64,000 nt of DNA from Ilex aquifolium (lineage: Eukaryota; Streptophyta; Magnoliopsida; Aquifoliales; Aquifoliaceae): positions 12,890,501-12,954,500 of the forward strand of contig OX637394.1 in assembly GCA_951799425.1 (NCBI GenBank). Direction: 5' to 3'. The position numbers and the translations under genes were made by a program. This document shows positions 11,135-64,000 of this stretch, piece after piece; position 1 is the stretch's first letter, and each line of letters opens with the position of its first letter. The notes beneath the pieces were generated by a model. The model was not told where the DNA came from, made no database searches, and saw only the letters and a program-made list of their open reading frames with translations.

Positions 11135-11666
11135 ACTCCAATTCTACCATTGACACATGAGTTGCCATTACAAGTGAATACACATATGTATTTTGGCCCA
11201 AGACAAACAAACTGGCCTAAAAGCTTGACAGTCCAGTGGGTCATGGGAAGATCGGGCCCACTTCATGACTGTCTGTTGGTCAGTCGGGTAGTGCATAAGT
11301 CTTTTCTACCCAACATATGAGTCAGGCCTGATCCAGGAAGGCATTGTTGGATATGTTGTGGGCCACACTGTTCCCGGAAATCTGGGCCTACCTTAATTGG
11401 TTGTTCACTGATCGGCCTAGTATAACGGGTGGATACTTGCAATCTGCGATGAAAATTTCTCACCACAGTATGAAGAATTTAACTTGCACTTGCATAAACT
11501 GTTATTTAGATTTAATTTAAAGATTTAATTAATTACTTTATTTGATTAAATGTGAATTTTAATTAATTTTAAAATTCATAATTAATCTAATAATTATAAT
11601 AAATTAAATTCTCAAATTAGAGTTCTTTCCAAAGAAAGTATTGAAAAAATTAAATAATATGAGGAT
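11135..11666. other. Intergenic DNA, no gene seen
   Basis: Contains a moderately GC-rich stretch (11200-11460) with no recognisable protein, then AT-rich DNA leading to the tRNA terminator. Confidence 0.5.
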
Positions 11667-11748
11667 GGTGGCTGTGGGGTTCGAACCCACGCGCACTTAT
11701 GTGCAGAAGATCTTAAGTCTTCCCCCTTAACCTCTCGGGCAAACCACC
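11667..11748 (-). tRNA. tRNA-Leu (anticodon UAA)
   Basis: On the minus strand the 82-nt sequence folds as a class II tRNA. The acceptor stem is GGTGGTT with AGCCACC, the D stem is CCC/GGG, and the anticodon stem is GAAGA/TCTTC around loop CTTAAGA (anticodon TAA). A long variable arm TGCAC-ATAA-GTGCG follows, then the T arm GTGGG-TTCGAAC-CCCAC. The internal B box GGTTCGAAC is intact. A run of T follows within about 25 nt on the minus strand, suitable as a Pol III terminator. No intron is present. Confidence 0.95.
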
Positions 11749-24846: not shown

Positions 24847-25462
24847 TATGAAGCACGGATACGGATACGGCGATACGGGATACGACGATACGGCAAAATT
24901 TAAAAAAATAGGATACGGATACGACTATAATAAAATATTTTTATTATTTTCAACCAACTTAATACTTATATATTTTGGTAGTTCTTTAACATATAATAAG
25001 AAAAATTAGTAATTCTTTTTAGTTTCAAGAAAATATATATCGTATCGCTGTGGTATATTCACAAAGTGAAGTGACAAATTAAAGGAATCAAAGCTAATAT
25101 TTACCTAGTATTTAGAAGTAATTTTGCTAAAATTATAATGTAATAACTTTATTTTATACTCTTTTGACATGTAATTTTAGATAATACTTAAAAAACACTC
25201 ATGTACTTTTGAAGTAATATGAATTTGTTGTTAATGTATTGTATGGTATGTAAATTCGAAAAGAGATGTTAAAAGTTCAACTAAAAAATTATATATGTTG
25301 GTCGACTACAAAAGTATCCGTGAAGTATCCTAATATTTAATTATTATCGGATACGTAGAAAGTGTATCCGATACGTATCGGACGAGTATCCGACGAGTAT
25401 CGTATCCGTAAAGTATCCGATACGAATACGTCAACCTCAACGAAGTATCCGTGCTATGATAG
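24847..25462. mobile_element. Mutator-like MITE, 616 bp, with ATACGG-rich ends
   Basis: Flanked by a perfect 9-bp direct repeat GTGCTAACC (24838-24846 and 25463-25471), the duplication size of Mutator-like elements. The left end TATGAAGCACGGATACGG is mirrored at the right by CCGTGCTATGATA. Both subterminal zones are built of repeated GGATACG/CGTATCC words. AT-rich centre, no transposase. Confidence 0.8.
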
Positions 25463-25471
25463 GTGCTAACC

Positions 25472-25734
25472 AATTGTTTGGGCTTGAACTCGATTTCTCA
25501 AAGCAAACGAATTGCGTTGAACCCAAGTTAAAAAAAGAGTCTAATGTGCGCAGGTAGGCAGACTTTGGGTGGGGGCTGGTTTTATTTTTAAATCAACAAG
25601 TGGAGTGTTGACAGTGGCCATTCTGGATTGTGGCGTGCTATGTGGGGTCCATCCGTATGATCTCCTTAGTTGCTCTAGAGTCCGCATCAAATTTGACACG
25701 TGTAATCAGAGCTAACTGTTCTGACCGGAGAATA
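25472..25734. other. Spacer before the Helitron array
   Basis: No gene or repeat recognised in this 260-bp piece. Confidence 0.4.
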
Positions 25735-26261
25735 TCTATATAATAAAGTAGCTCACAATTCAAATCTCAAAAGATAAACAAAATGACTTTTGCTATTCGC
25801 GGTTGAGATCACTTTAAATTTTACTTTAAAGTTAATCTAACGGTTAATATTAACACTCCAAATTTAATAGGAAAAAGAGACCCCTAAGGGTGTGTTTGGG
25901 ATAACTTTTTAAAAGTACTTTTAGAACTTATAATTTTTCATATGTATATTAAAAAAAAAATAGTGTTTGAAACTGTCCCACCATTACCTCTACCACCACC
26001 ATCGCCACCACTATCACGGCCGCCGCCACCACCGCCGTTGCCACCACCACTGCCGCCGCCACCACCACCACCATCATCGCCGCCGCCACCACAACCATCA
26101 CCATCTCCTACCACCACCACCTCTCACCCCCACTACAACTGATATTTAAATTCATTTATTTATCCTCTATGTTTGTAATTTGATTTTGGATATAAATACA
26201 AATATATTTATTGTTTACCATTTTTTATTATTCTGTGCCTTCAGGCACAGGCAATAACTAG
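25735..26261 (+). mobile_element. Non-autonomous Helitron, array copy 1 (527 bp)
   Basis: Starts TCTATATAATAAAGTAG after an A and ends in the hairpin CTGTGCC-TTCA-GGCACAG, a short spacer and CTAG followed by T. This is the 5'-TC...CTRR-3' structure with A|T target expected of Helitrons. The interior holds a (CCA/CCG)n array at about 25978-26120 and no RepHel gene. Confidence 0.85.
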
Positions 26262-26265
26262 TATA

Positions 26266-26683
26266 TCTATATAATAAAGTAGCTTACAATTTAAATCTCA
26301 AAAGAATAACAAAATGACTTTTGTTATTCGCGGTTGAGATCGTTTTAAATTTTATTTTAAAATTAATCGAACGACTAATATTAACATCCTATATTTAATA
26401 GGAAAAATAAGTCCATAAGGGTGTGTTTGAAGTGACTTTTTAAAAGTACTTCTAGAAATTATTTTTCATAAGTATTTTAAAAAAAAAAATAGTGTTTGAA
26501 ACCGCTCCACCACCACCGCCACTACCACCACCACCATTGCGCCCGCCACCACCACCACCCCCACCACCACCACCGTCGGCACCACCATCACCATTATTGC
26601 CGCCATCACCGCCGCCACCACCGCTGCCGCCACCACCACCACCATTACCACCACTACTGCCGCCGCCACCGTTACCACCACCA

Positions 26684-26715
<32 letters not shown>

Positions 26716-26999
26716 GCCACCGCCGCCGTCGTCACTATCATCATCATCACTCAAAATCCACCACCACCGTCACCATTCCCACCCACGACTGCTACCACCA
26801 TGGTCATCGCCTTACCCACCACAACCATCACCGTCTCCCACCATCACCATTGTCGCCCACCACTGCTCACCCCCCACTACAATCGATACTTAAATTTCTT
26901 TATCTCTCCTCTATATTTGCAATTTGATTTTGGGTGTGAATACAAATATGTTGACCTTTTTTTTATTACTCCGTGCCTTCAGGCACGTGAAATAACTAG
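26266..26999 (+). mobile_element. Non-autonomous Helitron, array copy 2 (734 bp)
   Basis: Same 5' end as copy 1 (TCTATATAATAAAGTAG) and a 3' hairpin CGTGCC-TTCA-GGCACG followed by CTAG. Separated from copy 1 by only TATA. Contains the longest triplet array (about 26505-26740). Confidence 0.85.
26505..26740. repeat. CCA/CCG/CCT triplet array
   Basis: Trinucleotide repeat in Helitron copy 2; sister arrays at about 25978-26120 and 27242-27485. Translations in every frame are homopolymer-like (Pro, His, Gly, Val), so no gene is called. Confidence 0.9.
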
Positions 27000-27003
27000 T
27001 ATA

Positions 27004-27667
27004 TCTATATAATAAAGTAGTTTATAATTCAAATCTTAAAAGATAAGCAAAATTACTTTTACTTTTCGTGGTTGAGATCTCTTTAAATTATACTTTAAAG
27101 TTAATCCGACGGTTAATATAAACATCTCAAATTTAATGGAAAAAATGAACCTCTAAGTATGTGTTTGGAGTTACTTTTTAAAAGTACTTCTAGAAATTAT
27201 TTCTCATAAGTACTTCAAAAAAAAAAATAGTGTTTAAAACCGCCCCACCACTACCTCTATCACCGCCACCCCCACCACCACTACCACCACTACCACCACC
27301 ACCGTCGTCGTCGCCGCCATCACCACCACCATCACCACCACCGTCGTCGTCGCCGCCATCACCACCATCGCCGCCACCACCACCGCCGTCGCCACCACCA
27401 TTGCAGCCACCGCCACCGCCACCACCACCACCACCACAACTGCCACCGCCACCACCACCGCCGTCGCCACCGCCACCACGGTCATTGCCACTCACCATAA
27501 CCATCACCGTCTCCTACCACCACCACCTCTCACCCCCACTACAACCGATACTTAAATTCATTTATCTCTCCTCTATGTTTATGATTTAATTTTGGATATG
27601 AATACAAATATGTTTATTGTTTACCATTTTTTATTACTCTGTGTCTTCAGGCACAGACAATAACTAG
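27004..27667 (+). mobile_element. Non-autonomous Helitron, array copy 3 (664 bp)
   Basis: Same 5' end; the 3' hairpin is CTGTGTC-TTCA-GGCACAG with one G-T wobble, then CTAG and T. Separated from copy 2 by TATA. The triplet array at about 27242-27485 differs in length and phase pattern from the other two. Confidence 0.85.
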
Positions 27668-28510
27668 TTATCATATATAGTTGAAGAATCACTTTGAACA
27701 GTCGGAGTTCGTTCACAGTTGCCTGTTAAACCAACGAAGTTACTGGAGTCAGATTCGAGTTCGGGTTGTTTTGAGTTCAATTAATTTTATTTGTTTTGTA
27801 ATATTATCCAAAGAAAAAATTCTTTAGATTTATTTTCACTCTAGTCAAGTGAGAGTGGAGTTGAATTGAATTTAATTATCAAGCTCGAGCAGAATCTTAG
27901 TAAACCTGCCGGTGAGGTGAGCTGGTTCTAAGAACTAATCTAGTTTGAGCTTTTAAAAGAGAAAATAAGGCATAGACTGGTTGTCATTGACTGGTTGTTC
28001 TCTTGCCAAATTGTTAAGGGCAAGTTGGTGAGGGATGAATGCCTTTTGGGGTAGGGGTAGGGGTAGGGGTAGGGGTAGTGGGGTAGGGGAGGGATGGTAT
28101 ATTGATACACATACATAAGTATTACTATACACAACATTAAGGTTAATCCTGACATCAGAAAAAGGGGAAAAATTAAGAATCAACGCTAGATAAAAAGTAC
28201 TTAAAAACTAAAACGAAATGATATTTAAAACAAATATTACCAAATGGTACCTAAATTCAGTCCAAAGGAAAAAAGGCAATGCAACAAAACAGGACAAACC
28301 ATGTAAAACATAAAACTAAAAGAAGAATTGGGAGCCCCAACATGCTTAATAATGGAAATTAGAATACAAAATTTTCATCTTGCCAACTTGTCACCCATAA
28401 CAATCGAGTATTGGGTCAAACCGGACAACCAACAAAAAAAAAAAAATGCAAAAATGAGCATACAAATAAAAAAAAGCATCTGTAATTTATGTAATAATGG
28501 AAAATTTTGT
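27668..28510. other. Intergenic DNA
   Basis: No gene. Contains the G-rich repeat at 28048-28093; the rest is AT-rich. Confidence 0.5.
28048..28093 (+). repeat. GGGGTA repeat, G-quadruplex-capable
   Basis: Five GGGGTA units, then GTGGGGTAGGGGAGGG. More than four runs of at least three G lie within 46 bp on the plus strand. Confidence 0.9.
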
Positions 28511-38055: not shown

Positions 38056-38134
38056 TAAAGAACTATACTATTGTAAAAACTTCATTACAATAACAGAGAA
38101 GTTCCAGTTCAGTTGTCATTCTCTTACTAACGCA

Positions 38135-38420
38135 TGATGAGCTCTTCAGCTCATAAAACAACAATGAACTCTTCAACTCATAAAACTAAAGATGAGCTCT
38201 TCAGCTCATAAAACAACGATAAGCTCTTTAGCTCATATAAATGATGAGTTTTTTAGCTCATAGAACAACGATGAGCTCTTTAGCTCATAAAACTAACGAT
38301 GAGTTCTTCAACTCATAAATACTACGATAAGCTCTTCAGCTTATAAAAACAAAGATGAACTCTTTAGCTCATAAAAACAACAATGAACTCTTCAGCTCAC
38401 CCAACTACAATGAGTTCTTC
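38135..38420. repeat. 27-bp tandem repeat, about 11 copies
   Basis: Units are variants of GATGAGCTCTTCAGCTCATA plus about 7 bp of A-rich linker. Each unit contains a small palindrome (GAGCTCTTCAGCTC). It lies just after the integrase region of the first Gypsy element, where Tat-lineage elements often carry minisatellites. Confidence 0.9.
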
Positions 38421-38609
38421 AAAAAACTAAGTTTCTTAGATATGTTCCTCAGCTTGAAAACATACCTCATACTTGACAAAAACAAAATTGTTTTTAGAAG
38501 AACAGAGTTCTCCTTGAAGCAAGGGGGCAAAGGGGAAACAGAACAAAATACAAGATACAAGTCTTTCATTCCCTCAAAAACTGTTATAAAAATCAAGTAC
38601 AAAGACAAG

Positions 38610-46654: not shown

Positions 46655-47669
46655 GCCTCACATGCCATAGGAGGCAGAAACTTTTTATCATATAAATTCA
46701 CACTAAAGGAGCACCACTGCAGTGCATGCAGTTTTTGTTATTGCGAAATGTATAGTTATACTTATTACAAACAAACAAGTGTAAGTACCCATGAGAGATA
46801 AAAGGGGTTGAGAGAGAGGAGTCGTTGACATATTTGACTGACCTACAACCAATGATCAAAATTTTGTTTCGATGCATCGTTTCGGTCGCCCCGGAAACGG
46901 AAATATTTCAATGTATTTCGAAAATGTTTCGACCCGTTTCGGAAACAAAATGAAAAAAATAAAAAATTTAACACTTATTTTTTAAAAATATTGGTTGAAA
47001 TACACCAAAATATCTTAAAAATACCCTGAAACATTCCGAAATGATTGTGCAAATGCATTGAAATATAACAACATTTCAAAATATTATGGAACACCTCGAA
47101 ATATTAGAATTTCGATTCTATCACTGATTCGTTTCGGTCCCCTTGGAAACGGAAACGTTTCGAACGTTTCGACCATTTCGAAACGATATTTTGATTTTTG
47201 CCTACAACATATTTGGCATCGTGAAGTTCATCTGCCTCACATGCCATAGGAGGCATAAACTTTTTATCATATAAATTCACACTAAAGGAGCACCACTGCA
47301 GTGCATGCAGTTTTTATTATTGCGAAATGTATTGTTATTACAAACAAACAAGTGTAAGTACCCATGAGAGATAAAAGGGGTTGAGAGAGAGGAGTCGTTG
47401 ACATATTTGACAGGCCTACAACATATTTGGCATCGTGAAGTTCATCTGCCTCACATGCCATAGGAGGTAGAAACTTTTTATCATATAAATTCACACTAAA
47501 GGAGCACCACTACGGTGCATGCAGTTTTTGTTATTGCAAAATGTATAATTATTACAAACAAACAAGTGTTAGTACCCATGAGAGATAGAAGGGGTTGAGA
47601 GAGAGGAGAGAGGAGTCGTTGACATATTTGACACACCTACAACATATTTGGCACCGTGAAGTTCATCTG
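46655..47669. repeat. ~217-bp tandem repeat, three copies
   Basis: Copies at 46655-47233 (enlarged by an inserted MITE), 47234-47447 and 47448-47669. The unit starts GCCTCACATGCCATAGGAGG and runs through GGAGCACCAC, AAACAAACAAGTGT, GTACCCATGAGAGATA, GAGAGGAGTCGTTGACATAT and CCTACAACATATTTGGCA. Copies are about 95 percent alike. Not coding. It begins about 60 bp after the pseudogene's stop codon. Confidence 0.92.
46850..47200. mobile_element. MITE inside the tandem repeat, 351 bp
   Basis: Ends CAATGATCAAAATTTTG and the inverse of CAAAAATCAAAATATCG form an imperfect terminal repeat. The perfect 8-bp duplication CCTACAAC flanks it (46842-46849 and 47201-47208). The interior is full of GTTTCG/CGAAAC words. 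8-bp duplication suggests hAT. The other two repeat copies lack it and show the empty site. Confidence 0.85.
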
Positions 47670-49294
47670 CCTTTAATTAGTATTTATAGTGTGTTGTAAT
47701 AATTTTTGTCCAAATATAAGGTAACTAACGTGTTAACATGTCATTTGTAGCGGATTAGCAGGCAGCCCCATGCTGCATCAAAATGTTTGAACTCTTCATA
47801 TCATGAAGATTAATTTAGGTGGTAAGAACAATTACATGAGCATAAAAGAAATGAATGCAACATTAAGTCAAATATTGCAAATGTTTGCAAGCCTCGTTTT
47901 AAGGCTAGGTAACCACTTCATCACTATACATGCCAAGCATAAAAAAAAGTAAAATTTTATGTTACTAACAACCAAAAGTACTTCGGGTCCACAGAAATAA
48001 GATGGTGGCAAGACTAGCAAACCAACTAACCAATAAACAAGAAGATGAGTGCAAAGCGACAACTACAATCATATTTTGTGAAGCAAAGTGTTCCGAAAAT
48101 TTGTTACACATTTTTAGGATAGGTAACCAACATACACTTTGATCGGTTTACATGATAAAGATGAAGAAAAAGAAAAATAATTTGTTTCATCGAACAACAT
48201 CATTTATATAGTTGTGACAAGATTTAGGTCCACCATACTGGCAGTAGGCATTTGGGTGACTAGATTTGGGTGTTTAAACACAGATGCTTATAGTTTTCAT
48301 GCAAGATCAAGCTATCTTTATTGAGAGATAGGGAAGTACCTAATAAGATACCCAACCCCACATAGGTATTTGGAGTCTAAACACATAAAGATAAAGTGTA
48401 TGGTATTACCATTCATATTATATTAAATCCTCCTCAGTTACTTCTCCTTTCGACGTAAGATCAATCTAAACGTGATCTCTCCTCATGAGTGCACCACATC
48501 GGGTTTCAACTCCTCCTTGATTGTGATCCACCATTCTCTATAAGCATAGCATTGAAGTTTGCTCTTCAAAAACACCAATTAATTGTCCACCCTTCAACAA
48601 GTCAGTGTGTTTCCCTCCATTAGCATCTTGCTATGCTCCATTGAGGGTCAAAATTCTATATTTCTCACATCTCAAATAAAGTCCTCCACTATACATTCTA
48701 GTACATGAATAAGGTCAAATCTAAATTTAGGGCTTCTAAAATGGAGTCCTACACTGTATCTACATCGCAGATTAAATATCCTCCGATTCCAACTATATCT
48801 ATTCGCAAATTAATTGTCAAAATTTTGGGTTGTAACAGTAAGAGAGAGAATGATGGCTTGGTCTCTGAAACTAAGGACAACTGTATCTAGAACAGGCCAT
48901 CAATAACAAGGATCCAAATAGTTTTCAAACCCTACTGTTATCTCTCGTACTCTATATCACTAATATTTCCAGATCTAAAAGAAAAAAACAATCAAAATCG
49001 AAGACACTCTTCATAAATAAGAGTCAAATTATCAGAAATTTTCTACTACGTTTATCAATAAACAGATTCAACAAACAAAGAAAGCACGAAGAAAAATCAG
49101 TGTTGGACCAACCTTCGTACTCGAATGTCGCATTCGCAAGGGAAAAATTTGCAGTCACAACTCTTGGATTGATCATCCAGAATTGCCAATGAAGATGAAA
49201 CTTGGACCGGTTGAAGTTTAAATTGAGATCGACAGCCTGGGAGTTTCTGAATCGAATATGAATTTCGGAATCAAAAGAATCTAGAAAAAGCATA
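47670..49294. other. Intergenic DNA, no gene recognised
   Basis: Short frames on both strands (for example 49293-49024 minus) have no conserved pattern I recognise. No element ends seen. Confidence 0.4.
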
Positions 49295-63702: not shown

Positions 63703-64000
63703 ACACTAACACGAACCAAGCGCTCGGTCGTTAGGGGCACGGCCCCGAGGGGTGTAAGACTCCAGCTATGGAGCAACGCCCTTAAAACACTAACACGAGC
63801 CAAGTGCTCGATCGTTAGGGGCACGACCCCGAGGGGTGTAAGACTCCAGCCATGGAGCAACACCCTCAAAACACTAACACGAGCCAAGCGCTCGGTCGTT
63901 AGGGGCACGGCCCCGAGGGGTGTAAGACTCCAGCCTTGGAGCAACACCTTCAAAACACTAACACGAGCCAAGCGCTCGGTCGTTAGGGGCACGACCCCGA
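63703..64000. repeat. 84-bp tandem repeat after integrase, at least 3.5 copies
   Basis: Units begin ACACTAACACGAGCCAAGCG at about 63703, 63787, 63871 and 63955, a constant 84-bp step. Each contains GTTAGGGGCACG-CCCCGAGG and AAGACTCCAGCC-TGGAGCAAC. The array runs off the window end and replaces the usual 3' untranslated part of the second Gypsy element. Confidence 0.95.

Follow-up and report, generated by a model that had tools for sequence, protein, structure and literature searches.

How did three Helitrons come to lie head to tail at one site with nothing but TATA between them? The question is raised by a locus in a 64,000-nucleotide stretch of the Ilex aquifolium genome (C4:12890501-12954500, here called the window, from an 800-Mb assembly of 103 contigs), for which a preliminary description had offered two answers, repeated insertion at the same site or a rolling-circle concatemer, and had placed the expansion of internal triplet arrays after the tandem was formed. 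The limits it gave, 25735..27667, are exact: TC opens the first element at 25735 and the final G of CTAG closes the last at 27667. All three elements are on the forward strand, E1 at 25735..26261 (527 bp), E2 at 26266..26999 (734 bp) and E3 at 27004..27667 (664 bp), and judged by their nearest relatives elsewhere E1 would be the youngest and E3 the oldest. The TATA spacers, at 26262..26265 and 27000..27003, are likewise as described. Each element opens with TCTATATAATAAAGTAG and closes with a hairpin and AATAACTAG; over the first 17 bases the three agree completely, which bears out the claim of identical 5' termini, and divergence sets in beyond them. Identity over the 5' 235 bp is 0.875 for E1/E2, 0.830 for E2/E3 and 0.845 for E1/E3, and over the 3' 128 bp it is 0.820, 0.836 and 0.906, respectively. 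When both strands of the whole window were searched, the 5' tip (up to three substitutions) was found at these three places only, and the exact 3' pattern at E1, E2 and E3 alone, other matches needing 4-5 substitutions.

The stack is bordered on its 5' side by GGAGAATA (25727..25734), whose A precedes the TC, and on its 3' side by TTATCATA (27668..27675), with T following CTAG. Helitrons make no target duplication, and comparison of the two flanks reveals none here. The upstream neighbour of the stack is an element-like stretch (24852-25455) that consists of GATACGG / CCGTATC repeats and is bounded by 11-bp inverted termini.

By their ends and short reading frames, E1, E2 and E3 are non-autonomous Helitrons. 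Their longest ATG frames, judged on length alone, are 66, 93 and 104 aa; two frames with GTG/TTG starts, of 133 and 143 aa, cross the triplet array of E2. The 3' hairpins lie on the forward strand at 26233..26250 (11 bp before the end of E1), 26971..26988 (E2; six pairs, with the outer pair open) and 27639..27656 (E3; the weakest of the three, with a weak inner pair); in each, six or seven base pairs enclose TTCA, about 11 bases from the end. Relative to shuffled sequences, they fold with z values of -4.65, -3.13 and -2.27 for E1, E2 and E3, and 0, 3 and 11 of 200 shuffles, respectively, fold as well. The hairpin is also found across a set of 104 complete copies, drawn from 62 sources (the window and loci within L002-L082; L001 duplicates the window and was dropped): pairing holds in 637 of 728 cells, as against 251, 318 and 146 when the register is slid by 1, 2 and -1, and the second pair is TA in 84 copies and CG in 9. 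These copies start with TC (84, as in E1, E2 and E3), TA (18) or TT (2), and 97 end in CTAG, as do E1, E2 and E3, although the copies were chosen by their ends with mismatches allowed and these counts are therefore not independent of the search.

The family to which the three belong numbers thousands of copies in the 800-Mb genome. Exact matches to the 17-base 5' tip, with A or T at position -16, number 2561, and exact matches to the 3' pattern, ending in A or T, number 2277; the reversed control gave 0 in both cases. In the first 100 of the 2561 tips, from which all 5' flank statistics were taken (A or T at -16 only), the flank ends in A 94 times, TA 70, ATA 58, ATATA 25 and ATATATA 17. At the other end, T stands at +1 in 44 of the 45 right flanks of complete copies that have no following element. 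Other copies thus share the end points expected of them, as far as these samples go (A before TC in 94/100, CTAG in 97/104), and copies enter between A and T, duplicating no target sequence, with one exception. This is an E1-like copy on the minus strand of C18:10367690-10370983 (L008), which lacks the first seven bases (TCTATAT) and carries the identical ten bases TAAACTAATA on both sides, unusual for a Helitron. Separately, at C5:25700542-25701015, two family 5' ends stand head to head and, from their positions, apparently share a tip.

The three elements differ most visibly in their CCA/CCG-rich arrays, and the described difference in length is real: as delimited by a C-rich maximal-segment score on the forward strand, the arrays measure 141 bp in E1 (25993..26133), 226 bp in E2 (26502..26727, with degenerate C-rich sequence continuing to about 26880, past the scored segment) and 300 bp in E3 (27240..27539). 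None is pure, CCA and CCG being mixed with other triplets. Such an array is present in 93 of the 104 complete copies; the 11 without one seem to belong in part to other families. Counted from the 5' end its median start is at 238 bp, and counted from the 3' end its median stop is at 129 bp (10-90% range 128-236 bp); in the 93 array-bearing copies its length ranges from 72 to 637 bp and follows that of the element (r 0.82). In relatives of E1 whose 5' parts are 97-99% identical, the array is almost that of E1, and most gaps comprise whole triplets. Among 15 copy pairs at least 95% alike, which are not mutually independent, the middle differs by a median of 15 bp and in 14 by a multiple of three; in more distant classes of pairs the medians are 72-120 bp and one third are multiples of three, the chance level. 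Because the array sits at the same place in most copies and is nearly the same in the relatives of E1, it is inherited with the elements and drifts by whole triplets between close copies; it was not born at this locus, and the proposed expansion after tandem formation is not supported.

Is the stack, then, a concatemer? Under read-through, replication of one donor would run past the 3' hairpin and deposit its copies in series, and head-to-tail order is what such a process leads one to expect. The neighbours should then be sisters. When the 5' parts of the elements (301, 240 and 237 bp for E1, E2 and E3) were used to search the genome, the ten best relatives of E1 proved 96-99% identical over up to 301 bp, the best relative of E2 95% over 240 bp and that of E3 90% over 237 bp, in each case among the best candidates listed (40, 41 and 41 rows). 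The best matches lie on other contigs or more than 1 megabase away, and the array neighbours are absent from the best 40 candidates scored for each element, the 5' parts of E1, E2 and E3 being only 83-88% alike. The 90.6% identity of E1 and E3 in the 3' 128 bp weighs somewhat the other way, the genome-wide comparison having covered the 5' parts. The junctions also differ from those of a concatemer, in which CTAG|TC is expected; both junctions here are CTAG-TATA-TC. Local tandem duplication, or unequal crossing-over, affecting a single element and the TATA beside it would account for the two identical spacers, but the copies are too divergent, their arrays differ in length, a copy on another contig matches the 5' part of E1 at 99%, and the genome has 117 TATA junctions, counting the two in the window; we consider this origin extremely unlikely. 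That single or separate copies were wrongly joined in assembly has a next to negligible probability: the copies are divergent enough to be assembled separately, the longest contigs measure 62 Mb, and junctions of these types are found by the hundred elsewhere.

The preliminary description had suggested looking for other tandem pairs genome-wide, and a search with the tips found them in quantity. CTAG is followed by the 5' tip within 0-30 bp at 615 places in the genome, compared to 0 in the reversed control, so the arrangement is not due to chance. The spacing is far from uniform: exact zero-spacer junctions (CTAG|TC) number 348, TA spacers 4, TATA spacers 117 (out of 128 four-base spacers of any sequence) and TATATA spacers 9, and the 126 junctions left for all other spacers form a thin background. 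These counts were made without requiring a hairpin; in the sampled loci all 55 TATA junctions have one, as do 28 of the 30 with no spacer. The sample is non-random, 30 of its loci being the first places of the 0-30 bp list and 24 plus 20 coming from the TATA list. TATA stacks sit in TA tracts: TATATATA comes after the last element in 18 of 27 of them, compared to 6 of 15 after zero-spacer junctions and 1 of 6 for elements without an upstream neighbour. A further class, CTAG|TATATAATAAAG, whose second copy is missing its TC, accounts for 9 of 103 junctions (in L005, L039, L041, L056, L079 and others) and may be a product of 6-bp slippage from the TATA class.

The exact CTAG|TC form of the 348 zero-spacer junctions is that of the junctions in Helraiser circles (PMC5876387), which would favour read-through. 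Neighbours were compared across the wider sample. In 41 adjacent complete pairs (21 TATA, 19 zero-spacer and 1 longer), mean 5' identity is 0.869 compared to 0.864 +- 0.003 for shuffled partners (reached by 120 of 2000 shuffles), and 3' identity 0.834 compared to 0.827 (306 of 2000). Taken alone, the TATA pairs, the class found in the window, have a 5' identity of 0.856 against 0.855 (640 of 2000). The zero-spacer pairs, at 0.882 against 0.874 (61 of 2000), have a very slight excess, which leaves room for some true concatemers; a minority of these may exist among the zero-spacer pairs. Neighbours elsewhere are thus much like shuffled partners, and adjacent members are nearest neighbours within the sample in 2 of the 41 pairs. 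One locus (L005) does hold two copies of the E1 lineage, 96.5% alike. On this evidence we regard read-through of one donor as a very improbable origin of the stack in the window.

If different copies had already formed a dimer or trimer, and this had transposed as a whole with a 3' end bypassed, neighbours would not need to be sisters, and skipping of the 3' end is known for Helitrons (PMC5148889, PMC4067079). Junctions should in that case travel, the left half of a junction being related to other left halves as its right half is to other right halves. A first analysis of 96 junctions with a left hairpin did return such a correlation (rho 0.21, reached by 0 of 200 shuffles) and made co-mobilised dimers a candidate, but that set mixed Helitron families. 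By a similarity threshold of our own, both halves are in-family at 51 of the 96, the left only at 10, the right only at 13 and neither at 22, so that 23 junctions pair an in-family end with an out-of-family end. Once the set was limited to the 51, the correlation was gone (rho -0.014, reached by 572 of 1000 shuffles), and the dimer signal was dropped. Among the 1275 pairs that these junctions form, none is at least 95% alike in both halves, and 6 are at least 93% alike. The closest relatives of E1, moreover, have different neighbours or none: among the top 8 rows of the E1 search, E1 included, 6 touch another Helitron end, and in 5 of these 6 the E1-like copy is on the 5' side (the junction in L003 is damaged, and in L005 both copies are of the E1 lineage). 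It is very unlikely, then, that the stack arrived as a unit, and the closer relatives elsewhere, the mixed junctions and junctions that do not seem to travel as units all count against the concatemer of the preliminary description. In L002 the E1-like copy adjoins a different Helitron family that has the same tip, TCTATATAATAAA.

Neighbours that are not sisters and junction halves that are uncorrelated fit separate insertions, rather than concatemers or travelling dimers. We conclude that E1, E2 and E3, members of one high-copy non-autonomous family, were very probably inserted serially and independently at one TA-rich site; of the two origins first offered, repeated insertion is the best explanation. 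The original target would have had the form GAATA-TATA-TATA-TTATC, and a RepHel-encoding Helitron of the same genome may have mobilised the elements in trans. New copies would be attracted by the termini of residents and would use the closest A|T that is acceptable: entry at A|TC, where the resident itself is nicked at its 5' end, would give CTAG|TC, and entry 4 bp away in the flanking TATA would give CTAG-TATA-TC. The stack would have grown towards its 5' side, E3 arriving first and E1 last. With nearest-relative identity, taken from queries of unequal length, as a rough clock, the ladder of 99, 95 and 90% for E1, E2 and E3 perhaps places the newest copy at the 5' side. The wider sample leaves the order of insertion undecided, the younger member being on the left in 8, on the right in 5 and equal in 6 of the zero-spacer pairs, and in 9, 7 and 5, respectively, of the TATA pairs.

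Target preference accounts for part of the spacing. To leave a TA spacer, entry on the 3' side would have to accept G at -3 (A 73 and G 2 in the first 100 of 2561 flanks), and entry on the 5' side C at +4 (0 of 45 right flanks); these disfavoured bases may explain why TA spacers are rare. Their rarity (4) is nevertheless only partly covered by target preference, for a plain A|T rule predicts that TA should be commoner, and the rarity of TATATA (9) stays beyond such an account. The zero-spacer site has C at +2, found in 2 of 45 right flanks, yet it is the commonest class, so plain target preference is insufficient; our guess is that this class uses the nick site of the resident copy. A more specific possibility, to which we give somewhat less than even weight, is that insertion by this family is directed, at set distances, to the termini of its resident copies, complexes being held at the terminus so that entry occurs at 0 or 4 bp and seldom at 2 or 6. 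If so, hundreds of head-to-tail Helitron arrays would be records of self-targeted insertion and not of rolling-circle read-through.

Adjacent Helitrons have been published before, and the strict spacing of 0 or 4 bp is the one unexpected detail. The closest precedent is a maize pair in which, as here, CTAG abuts the TC of the next element and the two members differ in sequence; its authors conclude that they were inserted consecutively, at the resident's A|TC or G|T (PMC2267711), and zero-spacer entry at the resident A|TC is one of the two orders that they propose. The maize case, however, is one pair with captured genes and no spacer (PMC2267711), whereas the junctions here, 348 without spacer and 117 with TATA, involve non-coding elements. 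In Metarhizium acridum, three tandem Helitrons are described for which the authors allow either repeated insertion at the 5' end or rolling-circle replication, and a FoHeli4 copy lies 2 bp upstream of the partial 5' end of another (PMC5148889). Like our elements these fungal self-insertions are tandem copies, but they are single cases of non-canonical Helitrons, and the text examined gives no statistics of neighbour identity (PMC5148889). Tandem Helitrons of Myotis lucifugus, which have perfect head-to-tail junctions like those here, have been attributed to rolling-circle replication (cited in PMC2267711, PMC4067079); unlike those tandems, the members of the present stack are not sister copies.

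More generally, tandem Helitron arrays have been attributed to bypassed termination (PMC4067079) or circular intermediates (PMC5148889); Helraiser circles contain precise end-to-end, head-to-tail junctions, and head-to-tail junctions are cited as support for rolling-circle transposition (PMC5876387). Since neighbours are mostly not sisters in 41 complete pairs, such junctions alone are no proof of concatemers and should not be taken as such. To the known kind of adjacent Helitrons the present arrays add scale, a failed sister-copy test and a spacing rule, which the distribution of 348, 4, 117 and 9 for TA spacers of 0, 2, 4 and 6 bp makes measurable. The literature searched, which excludes most subscription papers, contained no report of a 0-or-4-bp spacing rule for Helitrons or of a Helitron family with a CCA array.

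De novo Helitron insertions in wheat prefer AT (PMC13286980). The internal organisation of the family is reminiscent of two others. Rice DHH_Mothra is also high-copy and non-coding, with TC...CTAG ends and internal tandem-repeat blocks that vary between subtypes, but it is longer (1252-2741 bp), and its blocks consist of a few long repeats (block A is 20% GC) and not of C-rich triplets (PMC4683698). The DINE-1/HINE Helentrons similarly enclose a length-variable simple repeat in recurring non-coding flanks, yet have subterminal repeats and a TT target (PMC4067079, PMC7492417) in place of TC/CTAG ends and an A|T target.

The genome contains RepHel-type genes (150 scored matches to the Helitron_like_N profile), with loci near C4:1.52 Mb and C3:50.70 Mb among them. 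Within the range covered, 3 of 47 rows, at 2 loci, have a zero-spacer junction on their own strand no more than 6 kb downstream; uniform placement, with the length of C2 assumed, predicts 0.2 rows, and 2.25% of 2000 draws gave at least 2. On the other side of the junction the same strand gave 0, and the opposite-strand controls gave 1 and 2. A link between the family and RepHel genes through shared ends is thus suggestive only.

Apart from the Helitrons, the window holds a tRNA-Leu (TAA) gene on the minus strand (11666-11748) and several tandem arrays: GGGGTA repeated 7.5 times (28048-28093), a 28/55/107-bp unit (38134-38422), a 214-bp unit present about twice (47200-47672), and an 84-bp unit that runs from 63703 to the window end at 64000.
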